NCBI RefSeq assembly: GCF_014174375.1
Contig: NZ_JABEQE010000016.1
Location: 1-64,000, forward strand
Reading direction: 5' to 3'
DNA: 64,000 nt
From: Gluconacetobacter asukensis
GTDB lineage: Bacteria; Pseudomonadota; Alphaproteobacteria; Acetobacterales; Acetobacteraceae
Part shown: piece by piece, positions 26,522-62,230 of the stretch
Numbering within the stretch: position 1 is the stretch's first letter
Layout of the letters: each line of letters begins with the position of its first letter
Notes under the pieces: model-generated
Database searches by the model: none
What the model was told of the DNA's origin: nothing
The model's input: the letters and a program-made list of their open reading frames with translations, nothing else
Made by a program: the position numbers and the translations under genes

Positions 26522-27019
26522 CAGGACCGTTCTCGTGACCATGCGCGGCTGCCACGAGACCACGGGCCACGATCCGCCATCCGATGCCGTGATGACGTCC
26601 CTGTCCCGTCCGCCAGATCACCCCGCCTGACGGTTCCCGGTCGCAACCAGTGCTGACGGCAGGTCTCCTGGCTCGCGGTTGTCGTTCCGCATGGCCTTCC
26701 CGGGTTGAACGAAACCCCAGTGGCCCCGGGCCATGACGCCCGGCGATGCGTGAACATGCCGCCTACAGTTGCGGGGACAGCCACAGGCTTGGGCCTTCTG
26801 GCCCGCACTGTGTTCCCTTTTAATCCTCGTTGAGAGGAACCATCGCGCCCTTCATAGAATCTGAGCCCCGCCTGTCAAGAAAAACGCATGGCCAGCTTCA
26901 ATAGAACCGCCACACTTCGTCCCAGGCACCACGACATGAAATGGCGGCGAAACTCCCTCGTCCCGCGCAATTGTTTCTTTTCCCTTGATCGCCTGCGCCC
27001 GATCCCGATTGATCGGGTC
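26522..27019. other. Divergent control region between btuB and cobC
   Basis: About 500 bases with the cobalamin riboswitch of btuB on the minus strand (about 26650-26848). The remaining part toward cobC shows an AT-richer patch near 26960-27010 that could hold promoters. Open frames over the riboswitch are not genes. Confidence 0.6.
26650..26848 (-). promoter_or_regulatory. Cobalamin (AdoCbl) riboswitch
   Basis: Read on the minus strand the leader has, in order, the elements of the B12 aptamer: the entry region with AAAAGGGAAC, GCCTGTGGCTGTCCCCGCAACTGTAGG, a GCCACTG segment, GGGAAGGCC, and the B12 box GCCAGGAGACCTGCC (26658-26672) followed by GTCAGCA. It lies about 130 bases ahead of the receptor start, so corrinoid excess should turn off btuB and probably the whole btuB-F-C-D operon. 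Boundaries are approximate. Confidence 0.96.
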
Positions 27020-29047: not shown

Positions 29048-29213
29048 GGCCGAGGCAATGTGACCAGACGCACAACCCGCTGCCCCCGCCGGGTTTTCCG
29101 TCCCTGCCGCATCGCGCGAATCCGATCGGGCATCACGCACATTGTAAAATCCGTGAGATCAGTCTTGAGTGAGGAGCCGCCACCGGCACGCACCCTGTCG
29201 AGGAGGATGCAGC

Positions 29214-29666
29214 GTGAAGAAATTCCTGTCCGCCGGACTGACTCTCTACGCCCTGGGCCTGCACACGGCGGTTTGCGCGACGCCCGACCCGGCAGCCATG
29301 ACGACCGGACAGGTCACCTTCATGATGAAGGAGATCGGAGTCGGCGCCGGCTACACCTGGGGCACCGGCCAACTGGTCTATGGCGGCCGGTCCTACGACT
29401 TCACAATTTCCGGCGGTGGGCTGGGCAGCCTCGGATATTCCTACATCAAGGGCCACGGCACCGTGCGCAACCTCGCCCGCCTGCAGGATTTCGACGGCAC
29501 CTACTGGGCCGTGCAGGCCGAAGCGACGATGGGGCGAGGCCTGGGCAGCAAACTGATGGAAAACAACCACCAGGTGGATATCGACCTGACAGCCGCCACC
29601 GCCAGCGGCGCCCGCCTGTCGGCGGAAGCCATGCGGATCACGCTCCACCTGCGTCCCCCCGGCTGA
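29214..29666 (+). CDS. Secreted protein of unknown function
   Basis: 150 residues from a GTG preceded by AGGAGG (29201-29206). Signal peptide VKKFLSAGLTLYALGLHTAVCA, then a Gly-rich all-beta-looking domain: GVGAGYTWGTGQLVYGGRSYDF, GGLGSLGYSYIKGHG and WAVQAEATMGRG. The Gly/Tyr pattern and GVGYTWGxG motif resemble small exported domains of the DUF1134/EipA kind, but I cannot assign a family with certainty. The stop codon is 16 bases ahead of the 131-bp repeat. Confidence 0.72.
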   Translation: MKKFLSAGLTLYALGLHTAVCATPDPAAMTTGQVTFMMKEIGVGAGYTWGTGQLVYGGRSYDFTISGGGLGSLGYSYIKGHGTVRNLARLQDFDGTYWAVQAEATMGRGLGSKLMENNHQVDIDLTAATASGARLSAEAMRITLHLRPPG

Positions 29667-29682
29667 GAGGCTGGCCGGCAAT

Positions 29683-29813
29683 GCGCGCTGGTGGCGATCC
29701 GGCGCGCGTTTCCTGCGCTTCGCTGCTCACGGCCATCAAGGCCGCTCCGCTGCGATGCTCGGAAACACACGACGGCCGTGCCGCTGCGCGGCACTCTCGC
29801 TCACCAGCCCACA
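29683..29813. repeat. 131-bp structured repeat, copy 1
   Basis: This element has the same length as and about 88% identity to 62055-62185 without gaps. It is bounded by inverted ends GCTGGTG (29687-29693) and CACCAGC (29802-29808). Inside are a stem GTTTCC/GGAAAC (29708-29713 with 29761-29766), an apical hairpin CGGCC-ATCAA-GGCCG (29730-29744) and a second hairpin with a 7-bp stem and a TGC loop (29778-29794). Two internal direct repeats of the form GCTNCGNTGCTC flank the apical hairpin. It starts 16 bases after the stop of a plus-strand gene. It could be a small non-autonomous mobile element, a BIME-like repeat or a structured RNA. Confidence 0.85.
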
Positions 29814-29981
29814 TTTCCGACCAGCCTCTGCGAGGCGACACGCTGTTTCAGAAGCCCTGCTGGCGGCGGCCGTAAGGCCCGTCTCCCCCGCCCGGCTGCT
29901 TTTCAGATCTTACGATCCCCGCATGGTCCCCCATCCCGCCCCGAGCGGGTGGAATGCGCCCGGCACAATGGACATCGGCAC

Positions 29982-29996
29982 ACTTAAATATTAAGT
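29982..29996. promoter_or_regulatory. Palindromic operator candidate upstream of feoA
   Basis: ACTTAA-ATA-TTAAGT is a perfect inverted repeat with six-base arms, in an AT-rich patch 42 bases before the feoA start. Position and symmetry suggest an iron-responsive operator (Fur or Irr) overlapping the promoter; it does not match the E. coli Fur box closely. Confidence 0.38.
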
Positions 29997-30037
29997 ATTA
30001 TTCTCAACTGAACCTCACGTGCCGAAACGGACCCGGG

Positions 30038-30277
30038 ATGCGACTGAACGAACTGAAACTGGGGGGCAGCGCCATCATCGACCATGTGGAAGACCACACG
30101 GCCGGCGACCCGGTCGCCGAACGGCTGCGCGCCCTGGGTTTCGTGCCGGGCGAGCCGATCCGGATCGTGGCCGTGGGGCCGATCGGCGCCGACCCGATCG
30201 CGGTCGGCATCGGCTTTACCCGCTTCGCCCTCCGCCGTGCGGAAGCGTCGCGCGTGCTGCTGCGCGACGCGGCCTGA
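30038..30277 (+). CDS. feoA: Ferrous iron transport protein FeoA
   Basis: 79 residues, the normal size. SH3-like small cytoplasmic protein: MRLNELKLGGSA, RLRALGFVPGEPIRIV, then IAVGIGFTRFALRRAEASRV. It helps FeoB work. The ATG at 30038 follows a weak ACCCGGG; a longer frame upstream is open but has no FeoA homology. feoB starts 33 bases later. Confidence 0.93.
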   Translation: MRLNELKLGGSAIIDHVEDHTAGDPVAERLRALGFVPGEPIRIVAVGPIGADPIAVGIGFTRFALRRAEASRVLLRDAA

Positions 30278-30310
30278 TCCCCCGGGCCCCCGACATGAGC
30301 CTCCTCTGAC

Positions 30311-32155
30311 ATGAGCGTCCTCAACGCCGCCCTGGTCGGCAATCCGAACTGCGGCAAGACGGCCCTGTTCAACCTCCTGACCGGCAGCCGGCAGAAGGTG
30401 GCGAACTATGCCGGCGTCACGGTCGAACGCAAGGTCGGACGGCTGACCACCCCGGGCGGGCTGGCGGTGCGCCTGCTCGACCTGCCGGGCGCCTACAGCC
30501 TGGTCGCCACCAGCCCCGACGAGGCCGTGACGCGCGACGTCTGCGCCGGCACCTATCGCGGCGAACCCGCGCCGGAACTGCTGGTCTGCGTGCTGGACGC
30601 CACCAATCTGCGCCTGCACCTGCGCTTCGCGCTCGAGGTCCGGCAGATGGGCCGGCCGATGATCCTCGTGCTGAACATGATCGACGCGGCAAGGCGGCAG
30701 GGCATCGCCATCGACGTGCCGCGCCTGGCCGCCGAATTCGGCGCCCCCGTGGTCACCGCCGTCGGCATCCGCCGCAATGGCGGGCAGGAGGTCCTGCGCG
30801 CGCTCGACCTGCCCCCCCCGCCTCCGCCGCCCGCCCTGCCCCCGGGCAGCGATTTCCATGCCGAGGCCCGCCGCATGCTGGCCGACTGCGTCGCCCGCCC
30901 GTCACGGCTGGGCATGGCGCTGGAAGAGCGGCTGGACCGCTGGTTCCTGCACCCCGTCTGGGGCATGGTGATCCTGTTCGCCCTGATGTTCGTCATGTTC
31001 CAGGCCGTCTTCTCCTGGGCCCAGCCGGTGATGGACCTGCTGGATGCCGGCACCGCAGCCCTCGGCCAGGCCGTCGGCACCGTGCTGCCCGACGGCCCGC
31101 TGCGCAGCCTTATCGTCGACGGCGTCATCGCCGGCGCGGGCAGCGTGGTGGTGTTCCTGCCGCAGATCCTCATCCTCTTCCTGTGGATCCTGGCACTCGA
31201 GGAATCCGGCTACCTGCCCCGCGCCGCCTTCCTGCTGGACCGCATCATGGCCACGGCAGGGCTCAGCGGCCGGTCGTTCATCCCCCTGCTCTCCAGCTTC
31301 GCCTGCGCGGTGCCCGGCATCATGGCCACGCGCACGATCCAGAACCCCCGCGACCGGATGATCACGATCCTGATCGCCCCGCTGATGACCTGCTCCGCCC
31401 GGCTGCCGGTCTATACGCTGCTGATCGCGGCCTTCGTGCCCGAACGGCGGATCGGCGGCCTGTTCAACCTGCACGGGCTGGTGCTGTTCGCGCTCTACCT
31501 GGCCGGCATCCTCAGCGCGCTGGTCGTGGCCCGGGTGCTGAAGAACCGCGACCGGCAGGAGGAACATCCCCTGCTGCTGGAACTGCCGGCCTACCGGCTG
31601 CCCAACCCGCGCGACCTCGCCCTCGGGCTGAAGCAGCGCGCGGTGATCTTCCTCTCACGGGTAGGGTCGATCATCGTCACGGTCAGCGTCCTGCTCTGGG
31701 CGCTCGCCAGCTTTCCCGCCCCGCCGGCCGGCGCCGTCGGCCCCGCGATCGAATGGAGCCTGGCCGGCCGGATCGGCCACTGGATGCTCCATGTCATGGC
31801 GCCGATCGGCTTCAACTGGCAGATCTGCGTCAGCCTGATCCCGGGCCTGGCAGCGCGCGAGGTCGCGGTCAGCGCCCTGGCCACCGTCTATTCCCTGGGC
31901 GCCACGGATGGCGACGCCGCCCGCCAGCTCCAGCCGCTGCTGTCGGCACATTGGAGCCTGGGCACGGCCCTGTCGCTGCTGACATGGTATATCTTCGCGC
32001 CACAATGTTTTTCAACCCTCGCCGTAATCCGGCGTGAAACCGGGTCCTGGCGTATGGTAGGCATAACGGCAGGCTATCTGTTCGCCATGGCCTACGGCGC
32101 CGCCTTCATCGTCTGGCACGCATCGCTTCTTCTGGGTTGGGGGGGCAGTCCATGA
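30311..32155 (+). CDS. feoB: Ferrous iron transporter FeoB
   Basis: 614 residues, the short form. N-terminal G domain: G1 GNPNCGKT (10-17), switch I AGVTVE, G3 DLPGAYS, G4 LNMID. After a linker come two Gate regions and FeoB core helices (IPLLSSFACAVPGIMATR, then CSARLPVYTLLIAAF). The Cys of the gate motif is kept. It imports Fe2+ at the inner membrane under low-oxygen or iron-poor conditions. The stop overlaps the next gene (ATGA). Confidence 0.95.
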   Translation: MSVLNAALVGNPNCGKTALFNLLTGSRQKVANYAGVTVERKVGRLTTPGGLAVRLLDLPGAYSLVATSPDEAVTRDVCAGTYRGEPAPELLVCVLDATNLRLHLRFALEVRQMGRPMILVLNMIDAARRQGIAIDVPRLAAEFGAPVVTAVGIRRNGGQEVLRALDLPPPPPPPALPPGSDFHAEARRMLADCVARPSRLGMALEERLDRWFLHPVWGMVILFALMFVMFQAVFSWAQPVMDLLDAGTAALGQAVGTVLPDGPLRSLIVDGVIAGAGSVVVFLPQILILFLWILALEESGYLPRAAFLLDRIMATAGLSGRSFIPLLSSFACAVPGIMATRTIQNPRDRMITILIAPLMTCSARLPVYTLLIAAFVPERRIGGLFNLHGLVLFALYLAGILSALVVARVLKNRDRQEEHPLLLELPAYRLPNPRDLALGLKQRAVIFLSRVGSIIVTVSVLLWALASFPAPPAGAVGPAIEWSLAGRIGHWMLHVMAPIGFNWQICVSLIPGLAAREVAVSALATVYSLGATDGDAARQLQPLLSAHWSLGTALSLLTWYIFAPQCFSTLAVIRRETGSWRMVGITAGYLFAMAYGAAFIVWHASLLLGWGGSP

Positions 32156-33488: not shown

Positions 33489-35828
33489 TCAGTTGAAACT
33501 GACATCAACACCGGCAAAGACGCCGAAACCGTCTCCGACCAACTCGGCAGCTGCATCCCCCTTCGTCGACGTGTAAACGGGAACCACACCCATCGCGTAA
33601 TGCTTGTTGGCAAGGTTATAGAACTGAAGATAAACGCGACGGCTCTTCTGCGGCCAGAGATAACCGAGTGTATAGCTATAGATATGATACGGCGCCGTTC
33701 TCGCTCCATTGTCGTAGGATGCGACGATTGAAGACGCTGCCTCGACATCGAACGTGGTATAGAAACCGTTCTTGAAGTCCGCGTGCAGTTCACCCTGATA
33801 ATAATGCTCCGGCACACCGGGAAGACGATTATGACCGAAGACCGGATCATGATTGTAATGGAAATCCGACCATGTGTAGGATTGCATGTAGGTAATGGCG
33901 TTCCCGTTCCATTTGAACAACGTGCCATTTATTCCAGCTTCGACACCCTGATGAGTCGTGCGCGAGGCGTTGGTGAAGACCGCACTGTTATAGAGCTGCG
34001 AGACCGCCGTGACCGCCGAGAGAAGCTCGTTATGCACGGCCGAATGGTAGTAGGAGACACTCCAGTGCTGGCCCCTGTATGTCCCGTCCGAGCCGACCTC
34101 GAAGGTCGTCGCGGTCTGCGGCTCCAGCTTCTGCCAGCCTTCGGTCTGCCCCTGCGCGAGACCGGAGGTGTAATGCGTGCCCGAAAGGAACTGCCAGTCC
34201 TGCGCGGACTGAACGCTGCGGCTCACATTGCCATAGATACGGATATCCGGCGTAAGCTGGTAACGGAATCCGCCACGCGGCGCAAAATTCAGCGGCGCCG
34301 TGCTGAAATGATTCTGAACCGGATAGACCACCGACCCGGAACGTGGATCGTAGCTCAGTCCGCCACCGGCCGTCAGCCAGAAGTTCCTGAAGATTTCGGT
34401 ATTATTGCTGACATGGAATACCGTGCTGCTGCCACCCAGCTTCTGCTTGGTGAGGAGCGTGCCCACCGGCACGGTGGGATAGGCGGCCTGCCGGCGAACC
34501 AGGTTCATGAAGTTGCTTCCCGGCAGGTCACCTGTCGCGTAAACACCGGCGGTCGTCTCGGATTTATGACCAAGTATCGTGTCGTTTCGATTATAGTTTA
34601 TGACGCCGCTCAGATAAAAGTTGTTGTAGATTGACGCGGTATTGCCGAGCTGGTGATCCATTGGCGCGTCGATATAGGTCGCCCCGATGACGACGCGGGA
34701 GGCATCGTCGATGCGGACAGTCGTCCGATTGCCGAAATACTTTGTTCCAGGCTCGATCGTATAGGTTCCCCAGGTGCTATAGGGATATTGGGCCTGTTTC
34801 GGATTCTCCCTGACCTGCGCGCGCGTCAGATAATAGGGATTGCCCTCATAGGTCTGGCGGTAGCGGAAGAAGAAGCGCGTATCGACCGAATCATTAAAGC
34901 GGTAGCCGTAGTTGAAATTGATGCCGAACGAAGTCGCCTTCGTCTGGTCCTGGTAGCCGGCACGATATGAGTTCGTGACACTGATATAGTAATCCGATTT
35001 GCCGATGACCTTGCCGGAGGAAAGCTGCTCCTTCACATAGCCGAAGCTGCCCGCTTCGACGCGTGCCTGATAGGTCTTCGCGTCGTAGCCAGTGAAACTA
35101 TGGAAGTTGATCAGGCCGCCGAGCTGGAGCGAGCCGCTGTCGAGCCCGTTACCACCACGCAGGACCTCCGTATACTGGATGCCCAGCGGCTCCATGAGTT
35201 CGTTGAACGAGCCGATGGGCGTGGTCGCCGGCAAGTCGTCGAACAGCACGATGACGCCGGCACGCGTCGCGTTCGCTCCAACCTGGAGGCCAGACCCGCG
35301 GATGGACAGGCGGAGATCGTCCGAGCCGGCCGGGGCCTGCGCGTACACACCCGGCTGATAGCTCAGCAGATCGGCGGAAGTCGCGTTGCGCTGTTTGAGC
35401 ACCATCGCGGAATCGATGATGTTGGTCCCACCGGGGATCGAGAGAAGCTGTGCGCCTGCCCGCCGGATCGGGGCCAGACGGGCAGCCGTCACGTCCACCT
35501 TCTCCGCGTCCGACGCGCTGGCGCCCCCCATATACATGCCGCCCATGTCGTCATCCGCAGCGTTCACGGCATTCGCGGCCTTCACAGCCGGCCCGGCCTT
35601 GCCCGACGAAGCCTTGGCCACAGGCTTCTGTGTCACGGCCTTCGCCGGTGTCGCATTCGTCCCACGATGATGGCCGTTCGTCTGAACATTCGTCCGGGTC
35701 GCATCCGCCGACTGGGCACGGGCCGCGTCAAGGCTTTCAAACGACACCGAGCCCAGCAGCAGCGTCGCCAGCGATGTCGTCACCGCATGTCTCATGGTAC
35801 CGTAACGGGTCCTGTCCTGATAAGGCAT
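33489..35828 (-). CDS. TonB-dependent outer-membrane receptor
   Basis: 779 residues from the ATG at 35828, preceded by AGGACAG. A signal peptide (HAVTTSLATLLLGSVSFESLDAARA) is followed by a Thr/Ala/Lys-rich linker with a Met/Gly patch, a plug domain (about 165-285; SIPGGTNIIDS, LRLSIRGSGLQVG, LRGGNGLDSGSLQLGGLINF) and a barrel ending in DVSFN. The ligand is not evident; plug spacing recalls the FecA type. The gene is noticeably less GC-rich than its neighbours (many ATA, TAT and AAT codons), and it abuts a broken permease gene, so it may have been acquired separately. Confidence 0.9.
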   Translation of the reverse strand: MPYQDRTRYGTMRHAVTTSLATLLLGSVSFESLDAARAQSADATRTNVQTNGHHRGTNATPAKAVTQKPVAKASSGKAGPAVKAANAVNAADDDMGGMYMGGASASDAEKVDVTAARLAPIRRAGAQLLSIPGGTNIIDSAMVLKQRNATSADLLSYQPGVYAQAPAGSDDLRLSIRGSGLQVGANATRAGVIVLFDDLPATTPIGSFNELMEPLGIQYTEVLRGGNGLDSGSLQLGGLINFHSFTGYDAKTYQARVEAGSFGYVKEQLSSGKVIGKSDYYISVTNSYRAGYQDQTKATSFGINFNYGYRFNDSVDTRFFFRYRQTYEGNPYYLTRAQVRENPKQAQYPYSTWGTYTIEPGTKYFGNRTTVRIDDASRVVIGATYIDAPMDHQLGNTASIYNNFYLSGVINYNRNDTILGHKSETTAGVYATGDLPGSNFMNLVRRQAAYPTVPVGTLLTKQKLGGSSTVFHVSNNTEIFRNFWLTAGGGLSYDPRSGSVVYPVQNHFSTAPLNFAPRGGFRYQLTPDIRIYGNVSRSVQSAQDWQFLSGTHYTSGLAQGQTEGWQKLEPQTATTFEVGSDGTYRGQHWSVSYYHSAVHNELLSAVTAVSQLYNSAVFTNASRTTHQGVEAGINGTLFKWNGNAITYMQSYTWSDFHYNHDPVFGHNRLPGVPEHYYQGELHADFKNGFYTTFDVEAASSIVASYDNGARTAPYHIYSYTLGYLWPQKSRRVYLQFYNLANKHYAMGVVPVYTSTKGDAAAELVGDGFGVFAGVDVSFN

Positions 35829-61221: not shown

Positions 61222-61404
61222 GGACAGGACCTCTGCATGGCCAACGGGATCGTGCCGGAACCCTAGCGAAGCAAGATCTTTCGTTAAGGCACTGAATTGT
61301 CACAAAGCGTCACCAGCTCCAGCCCCTGCGTCCGCAATGAGTGTCGCGATCCGCCGCAAAAATCCGTAAGGTGCGCCCCATCATCGCCACCAACGGCAAG
61401 AGGC

Positions 61405-62046
61405 ATGCCGAAAAAGACCGCACCCTCCCCCCGCACCGCCCCGCCGACACGGGCAGGCCACCGCACACGCATGGCGCTGTTCGGCCTGGCGGCATGCGGC
61501 CTGCTGCTGGCGGCCGCCGGATTGCGCACGCTGGTCCTGGATCGCCCCCACGCCACCATCGGGGGACCGTACGCGCTGACCGACGAACAGGGCCGCGCCG
61601 TCACCCAGGCCGATTTCCACGGCCACTACACGCTGATCTATTTCGGCTACACCCATTGCATCGATGTCTGCCCGCTGACGCTGGCAACCGTCACCACGGC
61701 GCTCGACCAGCTCGGCCCCCGCGCGGCATCGGTCGTGCCAGTCTTCGTCACCGTCGATCCGGCGCGCGATACCCCTTCGGTCGTACGCGACTATGTGGCC
61801 CATTTCTCGCCGCGCATCGTGGGGCTGACCGGCAGCCCCGCCCAGATCGATCCGGTACTCGCCGAATTCCACGTCCTGGCCCGCCGGCACCCCGCGATGT
61901 CGAGCCTCCCCGACGGGGCCTATCTGATGGACCACAGCTCCGTCCTCTATCTGATGGACGGCAACAACCATCTGGCGGCCATGCTGCCGGTCGATTCCAG
62001 CCCCCAGGCCATCGCCGACCGACTACGCACCGTCCTGAGAACCTGA
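61405..62046 (+). CDS. Sco1/SenC-family copper chaperone (second)
   Basis: 213 residues from the ATG at 61405 with AAGAGG upstream. An N-terminal membrane anchor (about 23-44), thioredoxin-like domain with CIDVC (Cys85, Cys89) after FGYTH, VTVDPARDTP, and His177 in MDHSS. Classic Sco layout, different from the one in the oxidase operon. It may serve another copper site or have a redox role. It ends eight bases ahead of the 131-bp repeat. Confidence 0.9.
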   Translation: MPKKTAPSPRTAPPTRAGHRTRMALFGLAACGLLLAAAGLRTLVLDRPHATIGGPYALTDEQGRAVTQADFHGHYTLIYFGYTHCIDVCPLTLATVTTALDQLGPRAASVVPVFVTVDPARDTPSVVRDYVAHFSPRIVGLTGSPAQIDPVLAEFHVLARRHPAMSSLPDGAYLMDHSSVLYLMDGNNHLAAMLPVDSSPQAIADRLRTVLRT

Positions 62047-62054
62047 CCGGACCT

Positions 62055-62185
62055 GCGCGCTGGTGGCGATCCGACGCGCGTTTCCTGTGCTCCGATGCTC
62101 ACGGCCATCAAGGCCGCTCCGCTTCGGTGCTCGGAAACACACGACGGGCGCGGCCCGTTGGGCCGCTCTCGCTCACCAGCCCACA
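62055..62185. repeat. 131-bp structured repeat, copy 2
   Basis: Same length and order of parts as 29683-29813. The two copies differ at 16 of 131 positions by eye, ten of them within the second hairpin region near 62148-62166. That hairpin keeps a 7-bp stem with a GTT loop (62150-62156 with 62160-62166); three of the seven pairs are changed on both sides. The outer ends GCTGGTG and CACCAGC, the GTTTCC/GGAAAC stem and the CGGCC-ATCAA-GGCCG hairpin are unchanged. It starts eight bases after the stop of the Sco gene. Confidence 0.85.
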
Positions 62186-62230
62186 GGTCCGGTCAGGTTC
62201 TGACGGGCTCGTTGCCGGCAACCCGACTTG

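Follow-up and report, generated by a model that had tools for sequence, protein, structure and literature searches.

The question raised by this stretch of Gluconacetobacter asukensis DNA (64,000 nt, "the window" hereafter) is what a repeat of 131 bp, seen twice a short distance behind stop codons, actually is, since a sequence-only reading of the window had left three options for it (miniature mobile element, BIME-like repeat or RNA). The two copies exist much as described, with 118/133 positions identical and 4 gap positions (E = 3e-44 within the window), all of the reported stems (GCTGGTG/CACCAGC, GTTTCC/GGAAAC and CGGCC-ATCAA-GGCCG) being found and the 131-bp segments starting 16 and 8 nt past a same-strand stop codon, i.e., within the 16 bases that had been claimed. 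Neither the number of copies nor the limits held, as the two belong to a large family of mobile palindromes, each of roughly 165 bases, which is found in the Acetobacteraceae and whose copies mostly adjoin stop codons, and the ends that the abundant further copies share lie outside of the 131 bp.

These ends, defined from alignments of 31 and later 66 copies, include covarying outer arms of about 18 nt on each side of the 131-bp interior (consensus GAGCCTGACCGGAAATG ... CATTTCCGGTCAGGCTC), which brings the full element to about 165 bp and both window copies to the limits given in Table 1. The outer helix constitutes terminal inverted repeats of the kind expected for a TIR MITE and is paired in 96.2% of cells (66 copies), and the interior contains an inner stem bearing CGGCC-ATCAA-GGCCG as its apical hairpin, together with a second, short hairpin that comes in two main alleles. 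Copies from other genera retain this architecture with variable arm sequence.

Table 1. Positions of the features discussed (window coordinates, unless a contig is named)
Feature	Position	Strand	Remark
Element copy 1	29667..29828	better-conserved fold on -, host gene on +	limits are the outermost consensus pair
Element copy 2	62039..62200	better-conserved fold on -, host gene on +	limits are the outermost consensus pair
131-bp repeat as first read, interior of copy 1	29683..29813	+	
Corresponding interior of copy 2	62055..62185	+	
Apical core hairpin, copy 1	29724..29750	-	portion conserved across genera
Apical core hairpin, copy 2	62096..62122	-	portion conserved across genera
Copy 1 host gene, 165-aa ORF	29169..29666	+	conserved in genus
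Stop TGA of copy 1 host gene	29664..29666	+	directly before copy 1 left arm
Copy 2 host gene, 249-aa ORF	61297..62046	+	start codon uncertain
Stop TGA of copy 2 host gene	62044..62046	+	within copy 2 left arm
Second gene-end hairpin	own C1 34777, 171391, 213594, 213684, 288604, 288696, 398204, 398292		

The element is abundant in its own genome (4.39 Mb, 64 contigs), where copy 1 as a query gives at least 52 matches at E <= 1 (40 of the 241 first-look candidates having been scored), and where a 28-nt core and a 25-nt left motif have 91 and 119 matches, respectively, at up to 3 mismatches, the reversed-pattern controls giving 0 for both. A 664-kb sample of this genome (the window, positions 1-400000 of contig C1 and positions 128001-328000 of contig C3, the latter selected since it holds a copy shared with the relative G004) contains 40 clusters, 31 of them with a full-length unit, from which a few hundred clusters per genome can be extrapolated; 8/40 are multi-unit clusters, and mixed orientation is seen in 1/40. 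All of the 14 Gluconacetobacter genomes carry the element (10 to 119 left-motif matches per genome), and the exact apical core is present in 39/299 genomes and 18/102 genera of the family, the own genus counted (control 0). When 387 genomes were drawn evenly from the class, the own genome alone had the exact core, a pattern that diverged relatives could escape; 381 of the 387 are from outside the family, and none of these matched.

That the family has been mobile recently follows from copies differing between genomes 3-4% apart: stretches of the own genome, G004 and a further relative, G007, are 96.25-96.85% identical pairwise (96.25% for own versus G004), and 6 of the 8 indels of 35-450 bp between own and G004 (195.9 kb aligned), as well as 5 of the 5 between own and G007 (119.1 kb aligned), fall at elements, which supports the mobile-element option of the sequence-only reading. 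Only two of the six G004 indels at elements read as gains, namely a full own copy at 264 kb of C1, absent from 6/6 relatives examined, and an own copy at 293 kb, absent from 5/5; at 267, 284 and 308 kb the relatives have shortened or otherwise different forms of the element, and the site at 276 kb is compatible with either gain or loss. One G007 copy is absent from both the own genome and G004, the empty site there being the small palindrome CATCC-GACA-GGATG, and, for two gained copies altogether, the relatives carry such a small palindrome instead (CATCC-GACA-GGATG or GGCCGTT-CGAC-AACGGCC). These palindromes are less likely to be footprints of element loss, as two genomes have the identical empty site and the third has the copy. 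No target-site duplication, for which the earlier reading had proposed to look, is recognisable at the few gained sites. The shortened copies resemble deletions between direct repeats such as TTTCC; copies would seem to lose hairpins after insertion, apparently by deletion of this kind between short repeats, and may also exchange modules among themselves. A half-model search of 11 stretches (1.66 Mb) showed that, for 6 of 95 left ends, the nearest right end is 2.4-3.9 kb off, i.e., beyond 260 bp, so that a longer parent element may exist. As a separate observation, at own C1 276606-276730 and near position 34600 of G007 contig C10, the right arm can pair with the conserved 3' end of the host gene's coding sequence (GEP codons plus stop), and where one genome has TAA and the other TAG, the right arm has changed to match.

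The placement of the element with respect to stop codons is one of its two conspicuous properties, the other being the strand that folds. In same-direction gene gaps of the own sample the element is oriented with the gene in 17 cases and against it in 4, the remaining clusters (n = 40) being 15 convergent, 3 divergent and 1 within a called gene. In 27 of the 40 clusters the last base of a same-strand stop codon falls within model positions 1-18, and on the identical base in 15, the former being an automated, uncorrected figure from a home-made gene caller that missed some genes (the conserved host genes of at least two further clusters were overlooked by it). Stretches of relatives, whose 42 clusters include orthologues of own copies, have a stop at model positions 1-19 in 30 of them and 20 elements oriented with the gene versus 4 against. 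A broader set comprised 94 loci with arms among the matches listed (11 other genera contributed 88 and G. diazotrophicus 6; core hits lacking acceptable arms, 10 of 104, were dropped, as were hits with less than 150 nt of upstream sequence), and the arm was considered stop-flush if an open frame of at least 60 codons had its stop within -8 to +14 of the arm start. Among the matches listed, 76 of the 94 loci are stop-flush, as opposed to 174/1795 random positions, and so are 72 of the 88 loci from other genera alone; the commonest placement of the stop relative to the arm start among these 94 listed loci is +1, and when the right end is examined likewise for a stop on the opposite strand, 26 of them are positive. 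Independently of any profile, 29/526 gene ends of the own sample have a long palindrome whose start falls between -15 and +7 nt relative to the stop, versus 3 in an equal range at 5' ends. Native hairpins were rejected as the source of this placement, only 3 of 62 (drawn from 192 element-free gene ends) starting within -5 to +4 of the stop. A fixed CTGA target was likewise found to be insufficient, as several copies away from called stops show CTCA, CCGA or other bases and as TAA and TAG stops are used as well.

How such insertions affect the host genes can be followed at both window copies. The protein encoded upstream of copy 1, for which Pfam gave no match at 0.001, has seven named orthologues, each from a Gluconacetobacter species (tumulicola, aggeris, takamatsuzukensis, liquefaciens, dulcium, sacchari and diazotrophicus). 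Its length is equal in G. sacchari, which lacks an element, and in five species where the element is either full or shortened; in three more distant element-free genomes it agrees within one residue, and the G. diazotrophicus orthologue is several residues longer. The protein upstream of copy 2, presumably of SCO1 type judging by motif, ends in RTVLRT in the own genome, where the stop lies inside the arm, in RTLLPT in G001, where it lies at the arm edge, and in RTLLPNA in the element-free G005 and G010. Taken together, these comparisons suggest that the element appears to enter at the natural stop or up to about nine bases from it. Insertion would take place at a stop codon or immediately behind it, or else into a small palindrome close to a gene end, and stop-flush insertions would persist because the protein is barely changed, being left nearly intact, although the site is perhaps also targeted as such; copies kept at one gene in several species would also fit a retained function. 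Within copy 1 (window 29726-29782), G004 and G007 have one common internal deletion and more distant species retain the large hairpin, which suggests re-conversion or recombination between species. The ferrous iron transport genes feoA-feoB (window 29984-32155) lie downstream of copy 1.

Covariation, judged against shuffled and slid-partner controls, is strong. The gene-strand structure has 57 predicted pairs, 34 of which show changes on both sides among 66 copies (370 cells, versus 99.5 +/- 11.3 after shuffling and at most 50 with the partners slid), and 44 of the 57 opposite-strand pairs do so among 20 sequences spanning genera (187 cells, versus 51.1 +/- 5.8 shuffled and at most 48 slid). 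Such counts, however, speak for a kept structure and not for a purpose, as both relatedness and module exchange inflate them. A passive palindrome, the arms of which are kept complementary by template switching and ectopic gene conversion so that the fold per se has no function, would accommodate the module differences at orthologous sites and the scarcity of one-sided relative to both-sided changes, yet it is very unlikely, given that it leaves the stop-codon placement, the gene orientation and the strand-specific wobbles unexplained.

These wobbles belong to the question of which strand is folded. The consensus fold of the 66 copies reaches -106.9 kcal/mol on the strand opposite the host gene versus -79.4 on the gene strand, a difference of 27 kcal/mol for which column-shuffled controls give 3.4 +/- 3.0 (20 shuffles), and the 20 copies spanning genera behave likewise (-81.5 versus -60.7 kcal/mol). 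Mismatches point the same way, an A-C on one strand being a G-U (or G-T) on the complementary one. Across the 94 loci among the matches listed, the ungapped parts of the outer arms comprise 2021 pairs, with 111 A-C, 16 G-U and 113 other gene-strand mismatches; A-C outnumbers G-U in 58 of these listed loci, with the reverse in 6, and does so in 12/12 genera, as opposed to 29 A-C versus 50 G-U in native gene-end hairpins (n = 170). This excess partly reflects shared ancestry or fixed positions, the ratio among the listed loci being 34 to 13 once the eight A-C-richest positions are left out, and it is weak across the whole structure of the 66 Gluconacetobacter copies (60 A-C versus 37 G-U, 23 versus 22 by columns, and p = 0.23 per copy without one dominant pair on each side). 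Five opposite-strand columns have at least 15% wobbles and are otherwise Watson-Crick, with 14 exceptions in 329 cells (66 copies), versus a single such column on the gene strand, a U-G conserved in 61/66 copies. Single copies also fold better on the opposite strand (66/66, and 92 of the 94 among the matches listed; -118.4 kcal/mol and z -7.3 for copy 1, versus -97.2 and z -4.9 on the gene strand), which proves little, since the strand energies of random 178-nt windows differ by 9.1 +/- 11.2 kcal/mol as well, 43 of 150 of them by at least 15.

The DNA strand opposite the host gene thus appears, on the strength of these predicted folds, to be the one with the conserved folded shape. It is quite unlikely that the element is instead a sense-strand 3'-UTR hairpin of REP-like kind, protecting mRNA ends, stopping transcription or stalling ribosomes at the abutting stop codon, even if it is gene-oriented and flush with the stop, folds well as gene-strand RNA, keeps the one U-G column on that strand and would recall the REPs within 15 nt of a stop for which ribosome stalling has been reported (Liang 2015, cited in the part of PMC5082802 drawn on here). 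The mRNA strand has the poorer consensus fold, the outer-arm mismatches on it are A-C rather than G-U, and the opposite-strand wobble columns further weaken sense mRNA structure as the main constraint; a canonical intrinsic terminator was ruled out, as just 3/66 copies have at least 4 T among the 8 nt that follow the right arm.

The RNA option of the earlier reading may still apply, but the better-conserved fold sits on a strand that it had not considered. The purines of the inner loop (GGA, with GCA in 2/20, opposite GA), kept across genera, and the G-U pairs suit an RNA, and G-T pairs in single-stranded DNA would leave an equal trace. A host-beneficial structured RNA made from that strand, as an antisense or trans-acting family spread by duplication and kept at gene ends, would profit from the same loop and from wobble columns alternating mostly with Watson-Crick pairs. 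At 48 of the 76 stop-flush loci among the matches listed, the opposite strand also has an ORF of 100 codons or more that stops no farther than 150 nt from the element's far end and from which transcription could come, a count without a control, such frames being common at high G+C. We nevertheless consider it unlikely: conserved promoter-like sequence was not found outside the ends, same-direction gaps account for 17/40 own clusters, closely related species differ in the copies they carry, and Rfam gave no gathering-score match for the element, the best of three weak hits (E = 0.16) being far below gathering, by which a known Rfam family was ruled out.

Several described systems invite comparison. 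YPAL shows a bias toward the region after stop codons and ERIC inserts at TA, and the attC sites of integrons are gene-oriented palindromes right behind a stop, the active form of which is the folded strand opposite the gene. The geometry of the Gluconacetobacter element resembles attC; the element differs, however, in being scattered genome-wide, and an integron integrase was found above the curated cut-off in none of the 14 genomes (nor in the control genomes). A REP/BIME of the classic type, mobilised by a RAYT (Y1) transposase, i.e., the "BIME-like" option of the sequence-only reading, shares the high copy number, palindromic and modular make-up and intergenic, gene-end placement, but is hardly credible: Y1 (PF01797) was found in 0/14 Gluconacetobacter genomes (three of them in 1-3 contigs) versus 5/14 control genomes, which led to RAYT-driven REP being ruled out, no GTAG/CGTC tag was noticed on inspection of the consensus ends, and about 165 bp is several times the 20-40 nt of a REP. 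The CGTC class is also reported as missing from the Acetobacteraceae in the portion of PMC3733652 consulted. Br-REP1 and Br-REP2 of Bradyrhizobium are likewise alphaproteobacterial 3'-UTR palindromes (Br-REP1 at about 200 sites), although with a consensus of 20 to about 40 nt and with stop-codon abutment unmentioned in the excerpts of PMC5082802 that were used. ERIC (RU-1, 127 bp) is also small and multicopy, its orientation matters, and it influences upstream transcript stability, but its termini carry TA (both as given in the consulted part of PMC2229807), whereas the ends of the Gluconacetobacter element adjoin any of the three stop codons.

The closest likeness is to YPAL (RU-2, 168 bp) of Yersinia, which, in the sections of PMC2229807 drawn on, is an intergenic stem-loop, recently mobile as judged by empty and filled sites, expressed together with upstream genes, and inserted into targets spanning or adjoining dyad symmetry. 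A mini-insertion of about 168 bp with empty sites in relatives is what is seen here as well, and dyad-symmetry targets were found, on two gained copies only. YPAL, however, belongs to another lineage and is likened by description and not by sequence; it duplicates 3-26 bp of target, a duplication not recognised at the Gluconacetobacter gains, and neither exact stop abutment nor an opposite-strand fold is mentioned for it in those sections. By this descriptive comparison, the element seems to work like YPAL/RU-2, without being filed as a member. No description of the repeat itself was found in the open-licence literature searched, and, in the part of the G. diazotrophicus genome paper that was available (PMC2765452), "palindrom" is absent and neither of two occurrences of "repeat" concerns it.

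On balance, we lean towards regarding the element as a YPAL/REP-like non-autonomous mobile branched palindrome of about 165 bp in the Acetobacteraceae, the selected form of which would be the folded strand opposite the host gene, be it single-stranded DNA or RNA, recognised by a mobilising enzyme. A more tentative reading, which we regard as doubtful, is a dispersed, mobile family of structured RNAs (or single-stranded DNAs) that is installed in antisense orientation to genes, the 3' end meeting the stop codon, e.g., through target-primed copying with the gene strand ending there as the primer, which would make it a new stop-codon-targeting class. Should the favoured reading be true, a mobile structure would place itself against stop codons across a dozen genera with its shape conserved on the opposite strand, and it would become directly testable how a mobile element locates or tolerates the places where translation stops, and whether it alters termination, mRNA decay or antisense transcription in vinegar, cellulose and nitrogen-fixation bacteria.

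Two other features came to light along the way. The sole gathering-level Rfam match of the window is a cobalamin riboswitch (RF00174, 103 bits) on the minus strand at 26641-26859. A second repeated gene-end hairpin, TTCTTTTTTGAAAAAAGAACCAAAAAACTTT..CGTTCAGG, in places occurs as two facing units about 90 bp apart, and five more occurrences of it were seen in the stretches of relatives.
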